The translations under genes were made by a program, and so were the position numbers. The notes beneath the pieces are model-generated. The model was not told the DNA's origin. It was given only the letters and a program-made list of their open reading frames with translations, and did not search any database. From contig LJVB01000025.1 of NCBI GenBank assembly GCA_001304215.1, positions 1-35,031 on the forward strand: a DNA stretch of 35,031 nucleotides, given 5' to 3'. This document shows, piece after piece, positions 25,161-35,031 of this stretch. Within the stretch, counting starts at the first letter, position 1. Every line of letters starts with the position of its first letter. Source of the DNA: Acidithiobacillales bacterium SM1_46 (GTDB taxonomy: Bacteria > Pseudomonadota > Gammaproteobacteria > Acidiferrobacterales > Sulfurifustaceae).

Positions 25161-26738
25161 CTAGGCGCCAGCACGTGCGGTCGCGCGCTCCGGTTTGGGT
25201 TCGACGAGAGGGCGACCGGTCATTTCCGGCGGGATCGGCAAGTCCATCAGGTGCAGCATGGTCGGCGCGATATCCTCCAGCGCCCCCGTTGACGCGATAT
25301 CGGCGGGGCGTCCGACATATACCAGCGGGACCGGGTTGGTGGTGTGTGCCGTGTGCGGCTGGCCGGATTCCACATCAAACAACTGTTCGGCATTGCCGTG
25401 ATCGGCCGTGATCAGCATTTCGGCACCGGCCTTTTCCACTGCCTCGAGGATGCGCCCGAGCGCCTGGTCCACGGCCTCGATGGCCTTCACGGTCGCGTCG
25501 AAGTCGCCGGTGTGGCCGACCATATCGGCATTGGCGAAATTGCAGATGATCACGTCGTACGCGCCGCCACTGATCGCCTTGACCACTTCATCGGCCACCT
25601 TGGGGGCGTTCATCTCGGGTTTCAGGTTGTAGGTGGGTACGTCCGTCGGCGAGGGCACCAGAATCCGGTCCTCGAACTCGAACGGGGTTTCGACGCCACC
25701 ATTAAAGAAGAACGTCACGTGCGCGTACTTCTCGGTTTCGGCAATACGCAGCTGATGCAGACCGCGCGAGGCGAGGTAGGCCCCGAGCACATTGCGCAGT
25801 CGATCGGGCGGAAACGCCACGGGAATCGGGAATTCCGAGTTGTATTCAGTCAGGCTAACGAATGCCGCAAGTTTCGGCGTCGCTGCGCGCGCGAAGGCAT
25901 CGAAGTCCTTCTCGATGAACGGACGCGTAATCTGGCGCGCCCGATCCGAGCGGAAGTTCATGAAGATGATGACGTCGCCGTCCACGACCCGCACCGGCTG
26001 CTCGCCGGCGGGAACGATTTCGGTTGCCTGCACGAATTCATCGGTTTCGCCGCGAGCATAGGCCGCTTCCAGTCCCGCTTGAGCGCTCGAAGCGGTGAAG
26101 GCGGCTTTGCCCAGAGTGATGAGGTTGTAGGCCGCCTGGATTCGCGGCCAGCGGTGGTCGCGGTCCATCGCGTAGTGGCGGCCAATCATGGACGCAAAGC
26201 GTCCCGTCTGAAGAGCTGCGAACTTGTTTTCCATCAGCTGGATCGACGTCACCGCGCTCTGCGGCGGGGTGTCGCGGCCATCGAGGAAGGCGTGGAGATA
26301 AACCTGCTTGGCGCCACGCTTCACGGCCAGTTCCGCCATGGCATGGATGTGCTCTTCGTGCGAGTGCACGCCCCCCGGCGAAAGCAGTCCTAGAATGTGC
26401 ACGCTCTTGCCGGCCTGCACCGCCTTGTCGACCGCCTCGGTGAGCGTCTTGTTGGTAAAGAAGCTACCGGTGGAGATGGCGCGATTGATTCGCGTGTACT
26501 CCTGGTACACGACGCGGCCGGCGCCGAGGTTCAGGTGACCGACCTCCGAGTTGCCCATTTGGCTGGAAGGTAGGCCGACGGCAGCTTCAGATGCCTGAAT
26601 CAGGGTGTGCGGATAGTGACCCCATAGTCGATCCCAGGTTGGTTTCCTGGCGGCGGCGATGGCGTTGTATTGAGGTTCTTCGCGATAACCCCAGCCATCC
26701 ATCACGATGAGAACGAGGGTTTTGGGCGTTTGCGACAT
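25161..26738 (-). CDS. gpmI: 2,3-bisphosphoglycerate-independent phosphoglycerate mutase
   Basis: 525 residues from the ATG at 26738 ([20 protein letters not shown]), with GGAA about 8 bases upstream. The frame is open to 26792, but those extra residues are not family-like. Asp14 and the phospho-Ser64 ([16 protein letters not shown]) bind manganese and the transferred phosphate. [38 protein letters not shown] and [10 protein letters not shown] supply the remaining ligands. It interconverts 3- and 2-phosphoglycerate in glycolysis and gluconeogenesis. It leads a - strand series gpmI-envC-ctpA-yibQ and is divergent from the ArsR-fold gene. Confidence 0.96.
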
Positions 26739-26790
26739 ACCGTATTTCCGTTCAACAGACTGATTTTTCTCTGATCTTTTTTCGTACATC

Positions 26791-26803
26791 ATTATTGTAT
26801 AAT
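26791..26803. promoter_or_regulatory. Divergent promoter core with palindrome ATTAT-TGT-ATAAT
   Basis: The gap between gpmI and the regulator is very AT-rich around 26760-26815. The 13-base palindrome includes TATAAT on the + strand (26798-26803) and a TATACAAT-like -10 on the - strand. This is placed so that a dimer bound here would block both genes, as ArsR-family proteins usually do at their own promoter. No clear -35 boxes are seen. Confidence 0.45.
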
Positions 26804-26902
26804 GTTTTTATATTATCCGGCAGCGGAAGTCGGGAATTCCGTCAAGATAGTCGGGGATTTCGTCGTGCCGGACGCGCGTGTCTAACGGGAGGTCATGACC
26901 CA

Positions 26903-27235
26903 ATGGTAGCAACAGCCGAAACATTGACTCAGGTCCTCATTACCAATGAAGAGGACATTCATACGGCATCTCGTGCGCTAAAAGCCATGGCGCACCCGCT
27001 GCGACTTAAGATTCTCTGCATTCTTGGCGGCAGCGATGAAGTGAGCGTTCAGGACATCGTCGAGCATGTGGGCACCTCGCAAAGCAACATTTCCCAGCAT
27101 CTTTCCATCTTGCGCGACAAGGGCATCCTGACCGCGCGCAAGGACGCCAACAAGGTTTACTATCGCATCGGTGATCCCAAGATTCTCAATCTGATCGGCT
27201 CGATGCGCGAAGCCTTCTGCAGCTCGCACCGCTGA
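26903..27235 (+). CDS. ArsR-family winged-helix regulator with a Cys39/Cys106 pair
   Basis: 110 residues from ATG 26903, with GGGAGG about 9 bases before it. The ATG at 26894 is followed by a stop. The HTH reads VSVQDIVEHVGTSQSNISQH (residues 48-67) and the wing ARKDANKVYYRIGDP. The arsenic/metal motif ELCVCDL in helix 3 is absent. Instead single cysteines occur in helix 2 (LKILCILGG, Cys39) and near the C terminus (REAFCSSHR, Cys106). The spacing of 67 is close to that of the persulfide sensors BigR and SqrR (66). It precedes a rhodanese and a glutaredoxin, so sensing of sulfane sulfur is a reasonable inference. It is not obviously linked to the ars genes 13 kb away. Confidence 0.85.
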   Translation: MVATAETLTQVLITNEEDIHTASRALKAMAHPLRLKILCILGGSDEVSVQDIVEHVGTSQSNISQHLSILRDKGILTARKDANKVYYRIGDPKILNLIGSMREAFCSSHR

Positions 27236-27259
27236 CCCGCTCGCCCGGTTTTTCCACCC

Positions 27260-27275
27260 GCCCGGTTCGCCGGGC
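27260..27275 (+). other. UUCG-capped hairpin between the regulator and yibN
   Basis: GCCCGG-TTCG-CCGGGC forms a perfect 6-bp stem with a very stable UUCG tetraloop, 25 bases after the regulator stop and 32 before the rhodanese start. No U tract follows in the + direction. It could terminate partly, protect the mRNA, or only be a spacer. Confidence 0.5.
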
Positions 27276-27307
27276 TGACACGCAGCTTCTGCATCGAGAA
27301 TTTCGAC

Positions 27308-27721
27308 ATGGATTTCGTTGTAAGCAACTGGTACCTGTTTGTCGCGCTGGGCGTGATCATTGGCCTGCTCCTGATGGGCCCCATCACCCAGGTGTTCTAT
27401 GGCATCAAGGGCATTACCCCTGCTGAGGCGATCCAGGTGGTTAACCGGGAACAGGGCGTAATCGTGGACGTGTGCGAGCCCAACGAGTTTCGCGAGGGGC
27501 GTCCGCCAAATTCGATGAATGTGCCGCTGTCGAGTCTAGGTCAGAATCTCACGCGTCTCGAAAAGTACAAGAGCCGACCGGTAGTGGTGAGCTGCCGAAG
27601 CGGCAACCGTTCGGTGCGCGCCGCGATCAAGCTGCGCAGGCAGGGCTTCGAGAAAGTCTTCTCCCTGTCTGGCGGCCTGCTCGGCTGGCAGCGTGACAAC
27701 TTGCCGGTGGAAAAGGGCTGA
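27308..27721 (+). CDS. yibN: Membrane-anchored rhodanese-like protein (YibN family)
   Basis: 137 residues. One N-terminal membrane helix (about 7-24, NWYLFVALGVIIGLLLMG) is followed by a single rhodanese domain: VIVDVCEPNEFREGRPPNSM and the active-site loop SCRSGNRS with Cys96. Rhodaneses carry sulfur as a persulfide on this Cys. The order yibN-grxC-secB-gpsA is the one of E. coli. The stop overlaps the grxC start (TGATGG). Whether it takes part in sulfur transfer or, as reported for E. coli YibN, in membrane-protein biogenesis cannot be told from sequence. Confidence 0.9.
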   Translation: MDFVVSNWYLFVALGVIIGLLLMGPITQVFYGIKGITPAEAIQVVNREQGVIVDVCEPNEFREGRPPNSMNVPLSSLGQNLTRLEKYKSRPVVVSCRSGNRSVRAAIKLRRQGFEKVFSLSGGLLGWQRDNLPVEKG

Positions 27722-27975
27722 TGGCGCAAGTCACGATGTATTCGACGCGCATTTGCCCTTACTGCGTGATGGCCGAGAAACTGTTGGCGAAGAAGGGTGT
27801 GTCGCCCGAGAAGATCCTGCTCGACGATGATCCGGCGCGGCGTGAGGAGATGGTCCGGCGTGCCGGACGCACGACCGTGCCGCAGATATTCATCGGCGAG
27901 CGCCACGTCGGCGGCTACACGGATTTGGCGGCGCTCGACCTGAAGGGCGAGCTTGAATCGCTGTTGCGCACCTAG
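27721..27975 (+). CDS. grxC: Glutaredoxin 3
   Basis: 84 residues, near the 83 of E. coli Grx3. The dithiol site is CPYC (Cys12, Cys15) after VTMYSTRI, the TVPQIFIGERHVGG block holds the cis-Pro and glutathione site, and DLAALD follows. It reduces glutathione-mixed disulfides in the cytoplasm. It starts within the stop codon of yibN and is followed by secB after 35 bases. Confidence 0.94.
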   Translation: MAQVTMYSTRICPYCVMAEKLLAKKGVSPEKILLDDDPARREEMVRRAGRTTVPQIFIGERHVGGYTDLAALDLKGELESLLRT

Positions 27976-28010
27976 CCGCCTGCCACTTCAACTGATCCAG
28001 TGAGGACGAT

Positions 28011-28478
28011 GTGACTTCCGAAACCCCCAATGCCCCATCGCTTTCCATCGAGAAGATCTACATCAAGGATCTTTCGTTCGAAGCGCCTTCTTCGCCGCAG
28101 GTCTTTCTTGAGCAACAGGCGCCCGAGGTGCATATCGAGCTCGGCATCACTCATCACCAGTTGAACCCGGAACAGGGTTTGCACGAGGTGGTGCTGGCGC
28201 TCACCGCCAATGCGCGTCGTGGCGACAAGAACTTCTTCCTTGCCGAGGCGCAACAGGCTGGCCTCTTTCGCATTGCCGGTCTGGCAGGCGAGTCGCTCAC
28301 CAAGGCCCTCGAGATTGCCTGCGCGCACGTGCTTCTGCCGTTCGCGCGCGAGGCGATCAACGAACTCGTCACGCGCGGTGGCTTCCCGCAGCTGCTGGTG
28401 AATCCGATGAACTTCGAGGCACTCTACGAGCAGAAGCGTGCCGCCCAGGCGCAGCCGGCGCCGGCCACCACGCAGTAG
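28011..28478 (+). CDS. secB: Protein export chaperone SecB
   Basis: 155 residues from GTG 28011, with GAGGAC about 6 bases upstream. SecB text: SLSIEKIYIKDLSFEAPSSP near the start, EVHIELGITHHQL, and LPFAREAINELVTRGGFPQL. It keeps preproteins unfolded and hands them to SecA. E. coli SecB has 155 residues. The C-terminal tail is Ala/Gln/Pro-rich (AAQAQPAPATTQ). It is followed by gpsA after a 52-base gap that contains a hairpin. Confidence 0.95.
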   Translation: MTSETPNAPSLSIEKIYIKDLSFEAPSSPQVFLEQQAPEVHIELGITHHQLNPEQGLHEVVLALTANARRGDKNFFLAEAQQAGLFRIAGLAGESLTKALEIACAHVLLPFAREAINELVTRGGFPQLLVNPMNFEALYEQKRAAQAQPAPATTQ

Positions 28479-28500
28479 ACGCGCGCCTTCGGACCTTTCG

Positions 28501-28530
28501 ACGTTCGGGTTACCATTGCCGCCCGAACGT
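28501..28530 (+). promoter_or_regulatory. Hairpin ending at the gpsA start codon
   Basis: ACGTTCGGG (28501-28509) pairs perfectly with CCCGAACGT (28522-28530), loop 12 bases. The ATG of gpsA follows directly, so the stem occupies the place of the ribosome-binding site, and no Shine-Dalgarno is visible. It may regulate gpsA translation or be the remains of a secB terminator. Confidence 0.55.
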
Positions 28531-29544
28531 ATGTCGTCCGCTGCAAGACAAACCATCGCCGTGCTCGGCGCCGGCTCCTGGGGAACGGCGCTGGCTTTGC
28601 TGCTGGCGCGCAACGGCCATGCGGTGACGCTCTGGGGACATGACGCGTCGCAGGTGGCGCGGCTGCGCGCGGCAGGCGAGAACGCGACCTACCTCCCGGG
28701 CTTTCGCTTTCCGGACAATCTCACGGTAACCGATACGCTGGCTCCCCTCGTGCGCGAGACAGCACAACTGCTCATCGCGGTGCCCAGCCATGCGTTCCGC
28801 GCCACGCTTGCCGCGCTCGCGGGAGCGTTGCGACCGGAAGGCGTGATCGCCTGGGCGACCAAAGGTTTCGAGCCCGGCAGCGGCAAGTTGCTCAGCGCCG
28901 TGCATGACGAGGTGCTCGGCGCGCGCGGCCGTTTCGCCGTGATTTCCGGTCCGACTTTCGCGATCGAGGTTGCCAAGAGTCTGCCGACCGCATGTACGGC
29001 GGCCGCGCCAACGGCCGAAATCGCCGAGCGCGTGGCGGGCTGGCTGCGCAGCGAGCGCATGCGCGTCTACACCAGTACCGATGTCGCCGGCGTGCAACTG
29101 GGCGGCGCGATCAAGAACGTCATGGCGATCGCCGCCGGCATTAGCGACGGTCTCGGATTTGGCTCGAACGCACGCGCAGCATTGATCACTCGCGGGCTTG
29201 CCGAGCTGACGCGTCTTGGCGTGGCGCTTGGCGGGCACGCCGAGACCTTCATGGGGCTGAGCGGCGCGGGCGACCTGATTCTCACCTGCACCGACAACAC
29301 CTCACGCAATCGCCGCGTCGGGCTTGGGCTTGGGCAGGGCAAGAAACTCGATGCGATCCTTGCCGAGCTCGGGCAGGAGGCGGAGGGCGTGGCGACCGCG
29401 CGAGAGCTTTATCACATCGCAACCCGCATGAAGATAGACATGCCGATCACCGAGCAGGTCTATCGCGTCCTGTACGAAGGATTGCCGCCGCTCGCGGCGG
29501 TGGAAGCATTGTTTGGGCGCGAGCCGCGCCCGGAGAGCGGCTAG
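28531..29544 (+). CDS. gpsA: Glycerol-3-phosphate dehydrogenase GpsA
   Basis: 337 residues from ATG 28531 (MSSAARQTIAVLGAGSWGTA). The frame is open to 28438 but that part overlaps secB and is Arg/Pro-rich noise. NAD(P) site GAGSWGTALALLLARNGH, then GPTFAIEVAKSLPTA and catalytic Lys in QLGGAIKNVMAIAAG, with the C-terminal GLSGAGDLILTCT. It makes sn-glycerol 3-phosphate for phospholipids. No ribosome site is seen because a hairpin lies directly before the ATG. It overlaps the stop of the following - strand kinase gene by 4 bases, tail to tail. Confidence 0.95.
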   Translation: MSSAARQTIAVLGAGSWGTALALLLARNGHAVTLWGHDASQVARLRAAGENATYLPGFRFPDNLTVTDTLAPLVRETAQLLIAVPSHAFRATLAALAGALRPEGVIAWATKGFEPGSGKLLSAVHDEVLGARGRFAVISGPTFAIEVAKSLPTACTAAAPTAEIAERVAGWLRSERMRVYTSTDVAGVQLGGAIKNVMAIAAGISDGLGFGSNARAALITRGLAELTRLGVALGGHAETFMGLSGAGDLILTCTDNTSRNRRVGLGLGQGKKLDAILAELGQEAEGVATARELYHIATRMKIDMPITEQVYRVLYEGLPPLAAVEALFGREPRPESG

Positions 29545-30905
29545 AGCCTTACGGTCACGGCCGTGCCGCCGAGCGCACTGCGCGCGAACCCGAGCTCCCC
29601 CCCGTAGAGAGTGACGGTGTCGCGCACCACGGCGAGACCGATTCCCTGACCGGCGACGCTCGTGTCGCCGCGCGCACCGCGTTTGGTCAGGCGCTCGGCT
29701 TCCTCCGGGGCAATCCCCGGGCCATCGTCCTCCACGATTATTTCGAGTCTCGGGCCGCTGGCGGCATCGCTGATGCGTCGTGCGCGCACCGCGACCTGCT
29801 CGCGGCACCACTTGAACGCATTGTCGGCGAGATTGCCAAGCAGCTCGGTGAGATCGCCCTCATCGCCGTGGAACGTGACATCGCCGCCGACGTCGACCGT
29901 CGTGCGTACCGGCTTGTCGGCGTAGACGCGAGACAGCGCGCGCACGATCTTTTCGGCGTGCGGGGCGACCGGGATCGGTGCTGAGAGCGCTGCCCGTCCG
30001 GCCATGGCGGCGCGCGCGAGCTGAAACTCAATCAGCTCGCGCATGCGTTCAATCTGCTCTTCCATCACCTTGCGTTTTTCGGTGTCGTCGCCACGCACAC
30101 CAAGCGCGCCGCGCAGCACGGCAAGTGGCGTCTTCAGGCTATGCGCGAGATTGCCGAGCGCATCGCGATAGCGCGCAAGGTGCGCGTGGGTGCTCGCCAG
30201 CAGGGTGTTCAGATTGTCAGTGAGACCGCGCAGTTCTTTCGGGTAGTCACCGCGCAGGCGATCGGTATCGCCGGCCTCGATGCGGGCGAGATCAGTGGCG
30301 ACCGTGCGCAGCGGCTTGAGCCCCCAGCGCAGGATCAGGCCCTGAACAGCGAGCAACAGAAGCGCTGCACCGGCGAGCCATCCCCACAGGCTTTGGCGGA
30401 ACGCGGTGATCTGGCGATTGAAACCTTCTAGGTGCTCGGCGACCCGGAACACATAGTGGCGGGTGGCGCCTCGGCTATCAGGCCAGGCGATACCCTGACT
30501 TAGTGCATAGAGTGGCTTGCCGTCCGAACCTGCAAGCGTTTCATAGAGGCGCTCGCCCACTGCGGGACGAGCGCTGAATTCCAGCTTGAGACCGAGGGCG
30601 GAGCGGGAATGCCAGCGGTCGCCACCGTCGGTGCGCGCCAGCTCGGCGTACAGGCCAGAGCCGGGCAGGCCGAGGCGCGGCTCGGGGAGATCCGGCGGCA
30701 GCTGCATGCGATCCTGTTTGTCGAGCTCGGCGGCGGCGAGCAGGGTATAGAGGTACGCCTGCAGGCGTTCACGCAGCGCGCGCTCGGCGGCTTCATGAAA
30801 GGCGCGGTCAAGTGCCCAGCCCGTCGCGCCGAGAAACAGCGCGAGCACGATGCTCGCAGCGAGCAACAGGCGCGCATGCAGGGAGAGATTTATCCCTTGG
30901 CGCAT
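29541..30905 (-). CDS. PhoQ-like sensor histidine kinase
   Basis: 454 residues. Helix 1 at about residues 12-30, a periplasmic domain of about 140 residues, helix 2 at about 173-192, then HAMP (RWGLKPLRTVATDLARIEAG) and phospho-acceptor His255 in LAHSLKTPLAVL, the H box of the PhoQ type. The ATPase has the N box LLGNLADNAFKWCREQV, G1 VEDDGPGIAPEE and G2 VAGQGIGLAVVRDTV. The periplasmic domain lacks an obvious long acidic patch like that of enterobacterial PhoQ, so the signal is uncertain. Its start overlaps the response regulator by 16 bases. Confidence 0.88.
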   Translation of the reverse strand: MRQGINLSLHARLLLAASIVLALFLGATGWALDRAFHEAAERALRERLQAYLYTLLAAAELDKQDRMQLPPDLPEPRLGLPGSGLYAELARTDGGDRWHSRSALGLKLEFSARPAVGERLYETLAGSDGKPLYALSQGIAWPDSRGATRHYVFRVAEHLEGFNRQITAFRQSLWGWLAGAALLLLAVQGLILRWGLKPLRTVATDLARIEAGDTDRLRGDYPKELRGLTDNLNTLLASTHAHLARYRDALGNLAHSLKTPLAVLRGALGVRGDDTEKRKVMEEQIERMRELIEFQLARAAMAGRAALSAPIPVAPHAEKIVRALSRVYADKPVRTTVDVGGDVTFHGDEGDLTELLGNLADNAFKWCREQVAVRARRISDAASGPRLEIIVEDDGPGIAPEEAERLTKRGARGDTSVAGQGIGLAVVRDTVTLYGGELGFARSALGGTAVTVRL

Positions 30906-31573
30906 TCGAGGGTAAAGCGGTAGCCACGCCCGCGCAGCGTTTCGATGGGCGTGAGCCGGTTGTCGGGATCGAGCTTGCGGCGCAACCGGCCGATGAACAC
31001 CTCGATCACGTTGCTGTCGCGATCGAAATCCTGATCGTAGATATGCTCGGTGAGTTCGGTCTTGGACACTACCTTGCCGGCATGCAGGATGAGGTATTCG
31101 ACCAGGCGATACTCATAGCCGGTCAACTCGAGGGCTGCTCCATCGAGCGTCACGCTCTGGCGCGCGGTATCAAGCGCGATGGGCCCGCAGCGAATCACCG
31201 GCTGCGCGAGCCCCGCGGCGCGGCGCAGCAGCGCCTTGGTGCGCGCCAGCAGTTCCTCCATCTGGAAGGGCTTGACGAGATAATCGTCCGCGCCGGCATC
31301 GAGCCCCTCGACCTTGTCCTGCCAGCGCCCGCGCGCGGTAAGAATCAGCACCGGGAAGCGCCGCTCGGCCGCGCGCCATGCGCGCAGCACCTCAACACCA
31401 TCGCGCTTCGGCAAGCCGAGATCGAGTACCACCAAATCGTAAGGGTTCGCCTTGCCGAGGTGCAGCGCCTCCTCGCCATCGGACGCGGTATCGATCGCGT
31501 AGCCGGCATCGCGCAGCGCGGACTGCAGTTGCCCGCGTAGCGCTGGCTCGTCCTCCACTACCAGCAGGCGCAT
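30890..31573 (-). CDS. PhoP-like OmpR-family response regulator
   Basis: 227 residues. Receiver: acidic pair Glu7/Asp8, Asp51 (VVLDLGLPKRDG), Thr79 and Lys101 (YLVKPFQMEELLART). The winged helix has ELTGYEYRLVEYLILHAGKV, EHIYDQDFDRDSNVIEVFIG, RLRRKLDP and GRGYRF. SNVIEVFIGRLRRKL is typical of the PhoP/QseB group. It overlaps its kinase gene and follows the PepSY gene by 3 bases, so all three form one operon. The regulon cannot be deduced here. Confidence 0.92.
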   Translation of the reverse strand: MRLLVVEDEPALRGQLQSALRDAGYAIDTASDGEEALHLGKANPYDLVVLDLGLPKRDGVEVLRAWRAAERRFPVLILTARGRWQDKVEGLDAGADDYLVKPFQMEELLARTKALLRRAAGLAQPVIRCGPIALDTARQSVTLDGAALELTGYEYRLVEYLILHAGKVVSKTELTEHIYDQDFDRDSNVIEVFIGRLRRKLDPDNRLTPIETLRGRGYRFTLECAKG

Positions 31574-31576
31574 CGC

Positions 31577-31867
31577 TCAGCCGCGCTCGGCGTCGACGTG
31601 CACGATCTGCACATGCCCCGACGGCAGGAGCACCTTGACGCGATGAACCGCGCGACCGCCACGGTTGATGGTCTCGGCCGACAGCACCCGACCGCCAGTC
31701 TGGGCGCGCACCTGTCGTACGGCCTGGTCGAGTGACACACCCGCGCGTGTCTCGTGCCGCGCCCTGTCGGAGGGGGCAGCGAAGTTTTCGCGCGCCTGCA
31801 CTGGCGCGGTCCCGAGGAACAGGGCGGCGAGCAGGATGGCAAGAACGGTTTGGATGTGCATGGTCAC
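31577..31867 (-). CDS. Secreted PepSY-domain protein
   Basis: 96 residues. Signal peptide (MTMHIQTVLAILLAALFLGTAPVQA/RE) and one PepSY domain at about 43-94 (VSLDQAVRQVRAQTGGRVLS, AVHRVKVLLPSGHVQIVHVD). PepSY domains are small periplasmic folds, often encoded beside two-component systems and thought to modulate peptidases or sensors. Its position at the head of the PhoP/PhoQ-like pair suggests a periplasmic partner of that kinase. ATG at 31861 is an alternative start. Confidence 0.85.
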   Translation of the reverse strand: MTMHIQTVLAILLAALFLGTAPVQARENFAAPSDRARHETRAGVSLDQAVRQVRAQTGGRVLSAETINRGGRAVHRVKVLLPSGHVQIVHVDAERG

Positions 31868-33326: not shown

Positions 33327-33791
33327 CTAGTGGCCGCCCGGGAATCCCTGCTGGCGCCACGCTTCGTAGACCGCGACGGCAACCGCGTTTGAAAGGTTGA
33401 GGCTGCGGTTTCCGGGCACGAGCGGCAGGCGCAGACGCTGGTCCGGGGGCAGGGCGTCCAGCAGGGCCTGGGGTAACCCACGTGTTTCCGGCCCGAACAG
33501 CAGGGCGTCCCCTGGGCGGTAGGCCACCGCGCTGTAGAGATTCCCTCCCCGGGTCGTGAAGGCCAATACCCGGGCCGGACGGACCCGGTCCAGGAAGGCC
33601 TCGTAGTTGGGGTGGGTCTGCACCTCGGCCCATTCCCGGTAATCGAGCCCTGCCCGGCGCAGGTCCTTGTCCTCCAGCCGAAACCCCAGCGGCTCGATCA
33701 GATGCAGGCGCGTGCCGGTGTTGGCGGCGAGCCGCATCACGTTTCCGGTATTGGGCGGAATCTCGGGCTGGTAAAGCACGACATGGAACAT
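33327..33791 (-). CDS. trmL: tRNA (cytidine/uridine-34) 2'-O-methyltransferase TrmL
   Basis: 154 residues, SPOUT fold. MFHVVLYQPEIPPNTGNVMR at the start, RLHLIEPLGFRLEDKDLRRAGLDY, LLFGPETRGLP and the knot motif PLVPGNRSLNLSNAVAVAVY are all TrmL signatures. It methylates the wobble base of tRNA-Leu isoacceptors using SAM. Length equals that of E. coli (157). It is an isolated gene on the - strand. Confidence 0.95.
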   Translation of the reverse strand: MFHVVLYQPEIPPNTGNVMRLAANTGTRLHLIEPLGFRLEDKDLRRAGLDYREWAEVQTHPNYEAFLDRVRPARVLAFTTRGGNLYSAVAYRPGDALLFGPETRGLPQALLDALPPDQRLRLPLVPGNRSLNLSNAVAVAVYEAWRQQGFPGGH

Positions 33792-34147
33792 GACGGTTCT
33801 CTGGCGCTGTCGGGACTACAGGATAGCGAACGACGGATTGTCGTCAGGCGGCAGTTAATCTTCCACTTCATTTGTGGCAATTAGGCGATTGAAGAGGCTT
33901 GCGAAGCGGTGGTCCGTTGCTATGTTTCGAGGGCTGGCCCGCATGGTCTTGTCGCTTGCTCCCATTGGGGATCGTTGGCACGGGTCATGCATATACGCAG
34001 ACAAGCGGGCTGTGGTACTGAGCGGTCGATAGCGGCTGCCACGGTTTCCGGTCCGGGTTCAATGGCCTGTCTGTGGCGCCCGGGATGGTGCGGTTTCCCT
34101 TTGGAGCGAGCCGCGGACATGTACTTAACTGAAGGAGGTTTGCTTTC
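33792..34147 (+). other. Gap of 356 bases upstream of the secreted-protein gene
   Basis: No gene is supported here; open frames crossing it have no protein-like text. It holds the sigma-54-like site at 33976, about 145 bases of apparently transcribed leader with several short GC-rich inverted segments (for example AGCGGCT near 34029 and AGCCGC near 34109), and AAGGAGG just before the next start. I do not match the leader to a known riboswitch. Confidence 0.5.
33976..33991 (+). promoter_or_regulatory. Candidate sigma-54 (-24/-12) promoter
   Basis: TGGCACG-GGTC-ATGCA matches the consensus TGGCACG-N4-TTGC(A/T) at all but one position, with exact GG-to-GC spacing. It points to the secreted-protein gene 157 bases downstream. 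No activator gene is in the window. Confidence 0.55.
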
Positions 34148-34750
34148 ATGAGTTTCAAGAGAGTGCTAATTCCGGCATTTGCCGCGGCCGCGGCGCTTGT
34201 CAGCCAAATGGCGGCCGCTACGGCGCCCCAGTCCTGTAATACGCCGTCGTGTACCACGGCTGGCGTGCCGGTTACCTTCCAGGTTCAGATCCCTGGGGTC
34301 ATGCGCCTTGAGGTCGGTGCGACCGCTGGCGCCACGACGGTGACCTGGGACAATACCGTGATTACGGCCGCCAATGTCGGAGACAGCACGGCTGTTAATC
34401 CGAGCGGCATCGCGAATGCGGGAACCGGCGCTACCGGAAACCAGGTCTACTATCGGGTGCTGAGTAATCTTGGCGGTACCAATGTCCAGGTTAATGCTGC
34501 CAACGTGGGCGGTCTCGCCTGTTCGGCGGGTGGCTGCGGCGCTGACTCTATCGCCATTACCCAGATTGCAACGGGCAATACCGGCACCGTGGCACATCCC
34601 ACGGTCAACGGCGGCGCAACGTTGGTACCCTATCCGGGCACCGGGATTATCAATGAGACCGGATTCTGGACCTACCAGTACTCCAATGCGACTCTTCCGC
34701 TCTCGGGTACCTACACGGGGACCATCACCTATACCGTGACGGATAACTAA
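34148..34750 (+). CDS. Small secreted protein, fimbrial-subunit-like (unrecognised family)
   Basis: 200 residues with a strong AAGGAGG 9 bases before the ATG. Signal peptide (SFKRVLIPAFAAAAALVSQMAAA/TA). The mature part is low in charge and rich in Thr, Gly, Asn, Ala and Val, with beta-strand text (VPVTFQVQIPGVMRLEVGAT) and an end GTYTGTITYTVTDN like the donor or last strand of some pilus subunits. Two CX4C pairs (Cys30/Cys35 and Cys125/Cys130) could form disulfides. I do not recognise the family. A strong terminator follows, so it may be an abundant surface or matrix protein. Confidence 0.65.
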   Translation: MSFKRVLIPAFAAAAALVSQMAAATAPQSCNTPSCTTAGVPVTFQVQIPGVMRLEVGATAGATTVTWDNTVITAANVGDSTAVNPSGIANAGTGATGNQVYYRVLSNLGGTNVQVNAANVGGLACSAGGCGADSIAITQIATGNTGTVAHPTVNGGATLVPYPGTGIINETGFWTYQYSNATLPLSGTYTGTITYTVTDN

Positions 34751-34794
34751 CAACATTCACGGCGGCCAGTTGACCGGCTTGCCGTCGTATGAGG

Positions 34795-34833
34795 AAGGAG
34801 GGAGTGCGCGAGTGCTCCCTCCTTTCTTTTTCT
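34795..34833 (+). terminator. Intrinsic terminator after the secreted-protein gene
   Basis: Perfect stem AAGGAGGGAG with CTCCCTCCTT, 10-base loop, followed by TCTTTTTCT. It is 44 bases after the stop at 34750. Confidence 0.92.
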
Positions 34834-34922
34834 GCCCAACAGTTAAGTGGTTGTGGCGCGGACTCTTTGATCTAATCTGTACTCTTACAACTAAACCGTA
34901 ATTGAGCGACCCAGTTGGTGCC

Positions 34923-35031
34923 GTGAAAAGAGACTGGTCGGGAAAACCGCGACGCGGAGCAGTTGCATCGGCTCGTTTGTGCGCCAGCCTTGTTGCGCTC
35001 ATTGCCCTGTGTTTGCCGGTCGGGCCTGCCC
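34923..35031 (+). CDS. Secreted or membrane protein, N terminus only (cut by the window edge)
   Basis: From GTG 34923 about 36 codons are open to the end: a basic region (KRDWSGKPRRGAVASARL) followed by a hydrophobic core (CASLVALIALCLPVGPA). This is a signal-peptide pattern. There is no clear ribosome site and the rest is outside the window, so it cannot be named. It may be a partner (chaperone, usher or anchor) of the preceding secreted protein. Confidence 0.5.
   Translation, partial: MKRDWSGKPRRGAVASARLCASLVALIALCLPVGPA

Follow-up and report, generated by a model that had tools for sequence, protein, structure and literature searches.

Chaperone-usher pili serve as a model of how proteins can be assembled with no outside energy source, and much of the knowledge about them derives from enterobacteria and a few pathogens. 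The Gram-positive WxL systems have a WxL-interacting protein (WxLIP), whose two Ig-like domains and C-terminal membrane helix are described in PMC10599100 together with the prediction that it inserts a strand into its WxL partner; by analogy, such strand insertion resembles the action of a pilus chaperone. Here we describe a locus that shares features with both systems. We consider it fairly probable that its first gene, which we call pil1, encodes the major subunit of a chaperone/usher-like surface fibre belonging to a clade absent from Pfam and NCBIfam. No earlier description of the locus was found in the open-licence literature; it may be in print under another name.

The pil1 unit at the contig edge

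The window, that is the whole stretch of 35,031 nucleotides analysed, is the entire contig C73 of genome G000 (2.6 Mb in 182 contigs, 91% complete), and its right edge is therefore the contig end, just past pil1. Among 60 relatives one other genome, G003, of the same taxonomic family, has a match to pil1. The unit and its flanks comprise:

33327 to 33791, reverse strand: gene for a SpoU-family RNA methylase (Pfam), a divergent neighbour outside the unit, which also adjoins pil1 in G003
33975 to 33991, forward strand: sigma-54-type -24/-12 site TTGGCACGGGTCATGCA, from sequence, scoring 24/26, with a similar site upstream of the G003 homologue
34003 to 34147, forward strand: presumed leader of 145 nt, its start site assumed, with no special fold
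34132 to 34138, forward strand: ribosome-binding site AAGGAGG, from sequence, nine bases before the ATG at 34148
34148 to 34750, forward strand: pil1, presumed major fibre subunit of 200 aa, from the open reading frame, its family and the locus
34791 to 34828, forward strand: 17-pair hairpin then a T-run, separating pil1 from the gene that follows, presumed to terminate transcription partly or to protect the 3' end, from our own search
34923 to 35031, forward strand: start of a second signal-peptide gene (GTG at 34923 or TTG at 34902), either pil2 or a second pil1 by its reading frame and its position compared with related loci, cut by the contig end

A DUF455 gene (Pfam) also lies to the left of the unit, and further left gpmI, a rhodanese gene, secB and gpsA, all named from Pfam matches, form a block. 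These four genes keep the same order upstream of pil1 in the window (25161-29544; pil1 at 34148) and in L039 (8065-14530); as L039 comes from another family, this placement of the locus appears to be an old one. About 2.5 kb left of the unit stand a histidine kinase gene and its paired OmpR-type regulator gene, along with a gene for a PepSY-domain protein (window 29541-31573 and 31577-31867). No Rfam families were found in the window.

The near-consensus -24/-12 site described in the earlier note is borne out: TTGGCACGGGTCATGCA reads TGGCAC-N5-ATGC, with a single departure from TGGCACG-N4-TTGC, and at 24/26 by our own weighting it is the top site of its type in the window, the runner-up scoring 23 (the probabilities of reaching 24 and 23 in 400 nt of Markov sequence are 0.0024 and 0.010). 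G003 carries CTGGCACAGTGTATGCA some 105 nt upstream of the homologous gene, scoring 23/26. The loose -24/-12 pattern occurs 13 times in the window's genome versus 4 times for a reversed control, and this genome encodes RpoN (PF04552, E 1.1e-69); no PF04552 match was found in G003, a genome 63% complete. Conservation of the site throughout the pil1 family was expected and is ruled out, as sites scoring at least 20/26 occur in 12 of 49 pil1 upstream regions versus 333 of 2450 shuffles. Only the window (24) and G003 (23) exceed 21/26, and the weighted scan of the 49 upstream regions gave no sigma-54-type site for pil1 relatives other than G003; sigma-54 control would thus be at most a local feature. 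The sigma-54 promoter that had been claimed therefore stands as far as the site itself, its match in G003 and the rpoN gene of the window's genome are concerned, but not as a feature of the wider family. Within this taxonomic family, RpoN probably switches on pil1. The leader had been credited with possible structure, which did not hold: the 145 nt that precede the ATG are no more stably folded than shuffled sequence (z -0.30; 78 of 200 shuffles equally stable). The ribosome site ahead of pil1 is as it had been described.

The secreted Thr/Gly-rich protein with two CX4C pairs is likewise confirmed. Residues 1-24 of pil1 are signal-peptide-like, judged by eye; the presumed mature part holds 17.6% Thr and 14.2% Gly, and the cysteines stand at 30/35 and 125/130. 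Since 34 of 45 pil1 proteins have no cysteine after residue 20, the two pairs are particular to the window's branch. The further description of this protein as fimbrial-like fits its locus, but its own sequence and fold do not show it: window pil1 alone gave nothing useful in Pfam, NCBIfam or PDB sequence searches, and its AlphaFold model, built without an alignment, has a pLDDT of 36, too low to show a fold. A well-known family, which the earlier note had set against its own reading, was not matched by pil1 in Pfam or NCBIfam.

A conserved locus of five protein families

With pil1 alone as query, a first scan of genome contigs gave no relative, and a tblastn search of plasmids gave no match. 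A profile of two sequences (window pil1 and the G003 protein) gave matches at E <= 0.01 in 14 genomes out of the 369 in the class, the match being strong (E below 1e-7) in eleven, the window's own genome counted in. The surroundings of these pil1 relatives share five protein families: pil1, pil2, C3 (about 160 aa), C1 (about 270 aa) and C2 (636-934 aa). None of the subunit and C3 proteins scanned passed a Pfam or NCBIfam cut-off. C1 alone then served as query against named genomes and gave 29 named loci, six of which are contigs that supplied profile seeds, leaving 23 independent. Of these 29 loci, 28 have pil genes adjoining C1 and 28 have C2 adjoining it, the exceptions being L076, which begins inside C1, and L063, both short contigs. 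When the neighbours of C1 were listed, second copies of contigs bearing other locus ids (L038, L039, L043, L044, L046 and L049) were omitted to avoid double counting.

The MAGs with C1 loci bear labels such as Gamma- and Betaproteobacteria, Competibacteraceae, Woeseiaceae, Desulfobacterales, Deltaproteobacteria and Rhodospirillaceae; further C1 loci are those of Thiothrix, where one genome is that of a named strain. The commonest order, in 21 of 38 loci examined, is pil1-pil2-C3-C1 with C2 convergent; in the Thiothrix loci C2 comes first and C3 is missing. As C1 is present in 17 of 369 genomes of the class (E <= 1e-10), the locus is widespread but not common. With a C1 protein, tblastn of plasmids gave one weak Arthrobacter match. 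Some genomes hold two copies of the whole locus: in tandem (L060, 5490-15881), on contigs C102 and C218 of G208, and in L069 and L070. The suggestion that a surface-structure locus of undescribed type may start with pil1 is thus well supported, in that the locus is conserved and includes a chaperone-like protein and a large outer-membrane barrel.

In the window's own genome C1 and C2 are present in one copy each, both on contig C12. The end of C12 holds, in order, the last codons of a pil1-like gene, a hairpin with a T-run, pil2, C3, C1 and a convergent C2. Because the pil1 of the window is complete and C12 has a pil1 tail, two or more pil1 genes are probable in this genome. Two arrangements would account for this: a single locus with tandem pil1 genes, split between C73 and C12 (compare L052, L057 and L060), or two loci (compare G208). 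An overlap of C12 with the window end was considered and ruled out, there being no exact overlap of 9 or more bases. In L039, gpmI-secB-gpsA is followed by pil1-pil2-C3-C1-C2, so C73 likely continues into such a locus, and the second signal-peptide gene that had been noticed is indeed there, as a signal-peptide-like reading frame running off the window end. The C2 of this genome (L086, 3578-4030 and 4020-5933) has a barrel frame without its own signal peptide; a signal-like start, along with a Sel1 repeat, belongs to an overlapping open reading frame in a different frame. This is possibly a frameshift or a two-gene arrangement.

Assembly breaks fall inside or just after pil1 at the right end of C73 and the end of C12 in G000, in G186 (C8 and C205), in L003 (11426-11525) and at the start of L070, a 100-N gap inside the G003 pil1 gene being among them. 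Such breaks in several unrelated genomes could mean that the subunit is variable within populations, or that the gene is merely hard to assemble.

The pil1 and pil2 proteins are homologous (hhalign 99.7%). Every complete pil1 has an aromatic residue exactly five residues before its end (Tyr in 44 of 45, Phe in one; two of 47 were left out, L003 for an assembly gap and L048 as cut by the contig end), and the last tryptophan lies at a variable distance from the C-terminus, 24-34. The corresponding position is less strict in pil2 (Tyr 24/33, Phe 5/33). Such a fixed C-terminus would be expected of pil1 if its last strand and its carboxylate were gripped by a chaperone, as they are in the chaperone-usher pilins described in PMC4654587.

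The strong terminator claimed after pil1 is present as a terminator-like hairpin of 17 pairs with a T-run, which our dedicated search found and a generic terminator scan did not list. Among the 34 gaps after pil1 of at least 50 nt, 29 have a best 50-nt fold at z <= -2, and in 26 that fold is stabler than all 30 mononucleotide shuffles; the sequence of the hairpin varies from locus to locus. A strict terminator rule picked out 7 of 38 junctions after pil1 versus none of 58 pil2-C3 and C3-C1 junctions. The strong hairpin in 29 of the 34 gaps suggests control of subunit dosage, and the natural reading is attenuation or 3' protection, which would yield an excess of pil1. Together with the first-gene position and the two homologous subunits, the hairpin suggests a division into major and minor subunits.

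The chaperone-like C1, the C2 barrel and their interpretation

Judged by its sequence, C1 is distantly related to WxLIP, via an N-terminal Ig-like domain. WxLIP_PGBD matches 18 of 33 C1 members at E <= 1 (best 1e-7; member 1 stays below the curated cut-off), and C1 profiles match EfmWxLIP1 in the PDB at E about 0.002; the PapD families gave no match among the 33 proteins. C1 has a basic residue at SPP[R/K]FE in 32 of 36 members and the Arg of G[R]xAVIVY in 30 of 36, residues which might be compared with the anchoring residues of PapD.

The AlphaFold model of C2, made for the L061 protein with an alignment of 29 sequences, has a mean pLDDT of 85.6 and 26 long strands between residues 53 and 532; an outer-membrane barrel is, as a prediction, certain. 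No inter-strand gap exceeds 18 residues, so the model has no plug domain; an usher-type N-terminal domain is also missing from it, and after the barrel comes a beta domain (549-643) where Pfam and PDB profiles place SdrD_B. In the C2 proteins of L043/L050, L042 and L049/L064 the barrel is preceded by a long N-terminal extension, roughly 200-250 residues in length, which may resemble LysM/FimV-type domains.

With the C2 model as query, Foldseek places FimD/PapC ushers at ranks 1-13 (best E 1.7e-14; TM-scores 0.26 to 0.41 by query length) and MtrB 14th. VIA-align, as a second comparison on the same chains, puts MtrB first (Z 16.7, 422 residues, rmsd 5.1), and PapC (14.3) and FimD (13.9) stand among porins of similar Z, so that ushers are not favoured over porins and MtrB; with this method the absence of a family from the matches is no evidence against it. 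The usher family PF00577 gave no match in G000 or G003, in a search that did match the E. coli control, and none among the C2 proteins at E <= 1. Because the two structural comparisons rank ushers and MtrB differently, we grade the usher likeness of C2 as probable, short of proven.

In our preferred reading, that of a chaperone/usher-like fibre, Sec would export the subunits, and C1 in the periplasm would hold them, probably via their C-terminal strand and carboxylate. The 26-strand C2 barrel, with its C-terminal SdrD_B domain, would be the export and assembly pore, at which pil1 would polymerise, perhaps by donor-strand exchange, and pil2 and C3 would either be minor subunits or take part in assembly. 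Because of the hairpin that follows pil1, the first gene product could be made in excess of the rest; RpoN probably turns pil1 on in this taxonomic family. More tentatively, and we think this on balance doubtful, the locus may represent a separate outer-membrane fibre-assembly pathway with no descent from any known usher clade, one where subunits pass from a WxLIP-related chaperone to a plug-less 26-strand barrel.

The relation of C1 to WxLIP, and not detectably to PapD, also invites a reading as a Gram-negative WxL counterpart, in which pil1 and pil2 do not polymerise but are surface proteins kept stable by a WxLIP-like C1, and C2 only exports or anchors them; WxL clusters, in the account of PMC10599100, typically pair two WxL proteins with one WxLIP. 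We think this unlikely, as 37 pil1 proteins gave no WxL match at E <= 1, the best Foldseek likeness of C2 is to ushers, and the hairpin after pil1 suggests unequal dosage. Moreover, only 7 of 36 C1 proteins have a strongly hydrophobic stretch after residue 40, against the C-terminal membrane helix that the same account gives to WxLIP.

The Foldseek ranking could also point to a known chaperone-usher clade, archaic or alternative, of which the locus would be a member too diverged for Pfam models to recognise. The archaic and alternative chaperones are described in PMC4654587 as without sequence similarity to the classical ones; and our hhalign comparison with E. coli K-12 fimbrial and pilus proteins was uninformative, the known relatives that served as positive controls scoring no better, which shows that such kinship can be missed. 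Against this, the C2 model lacks the plug and the N-terminal domain and has 26 strands, not 24, the closest sequence relative of C1 is WxLIP, and in the locus C3 has a gene of its own and the C2 gene is convergent, making a known clade an improbable home for it. That C2 is instead an MtrB-like barrel sheathing another protein, with the pil proteins as an unrelated surface coat, would fit MtrB being the best VIA-align match, but is very improbable given the lack of any cytochrome family match among the scanned proteins of the locus and given that Foldseek puts ushers first.

Comparison with known systems

Beside MtrB, C2 is likewise a large outer-membrane barrel, with MtrB its best match by VIA-align; the present locus differs in having no cytochrome match among its scanned proteins, a C-terminal SdrD_B domain on C2 and another gene context. 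With the Gram-positive WxL/WxLIP clusters it shares a WxLIP-related C1 adjoined by two homologous partner proteins, whereas it has an outer-membrane barrel, no WxL match in 37 pil1 proteins, and a C1 mostly (29/36) without a strongly hydrophobic stretch after residue 40. A separate pathway, if true, would tie the Gram-positive WxL system to Gram-negative pilus assembly.

Compared with chaperone-usher pili (type 1/P, Csu, Ecp), the likenesses are secreted subunits that are small and whose C-terminus is fixed, a chaperone-like C1 with a predicted Ig-like domain, and a large C2 barrel with a C-terminal Ig-like domain and ushers as its best Foldseek matches. In contrast, the locus proteins have no usher, PapD or pilin family match, there is a separate C3 protein, C2 is usually convergent, and FimD, as described in PMC12122975, has 24 strands and a plug where the C2 model has 26 strands and no plug. 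We have not filed the locus as a member of the chaperone-usher family, because a sequence match to the usher family is absent and the fold and chaperone comparisons are undecided. The reading proposed here would supply a family and a testable function for five protein groups unnamed in the libraries searched, those of cultured Thiothrix included. Known here from genes and models, the locus seems to work like a chaperone-usher system, and a widespread locus of this kind, with another chaperone family and a plug-less barrel, would show the minimum machine and how its pore stays closed.
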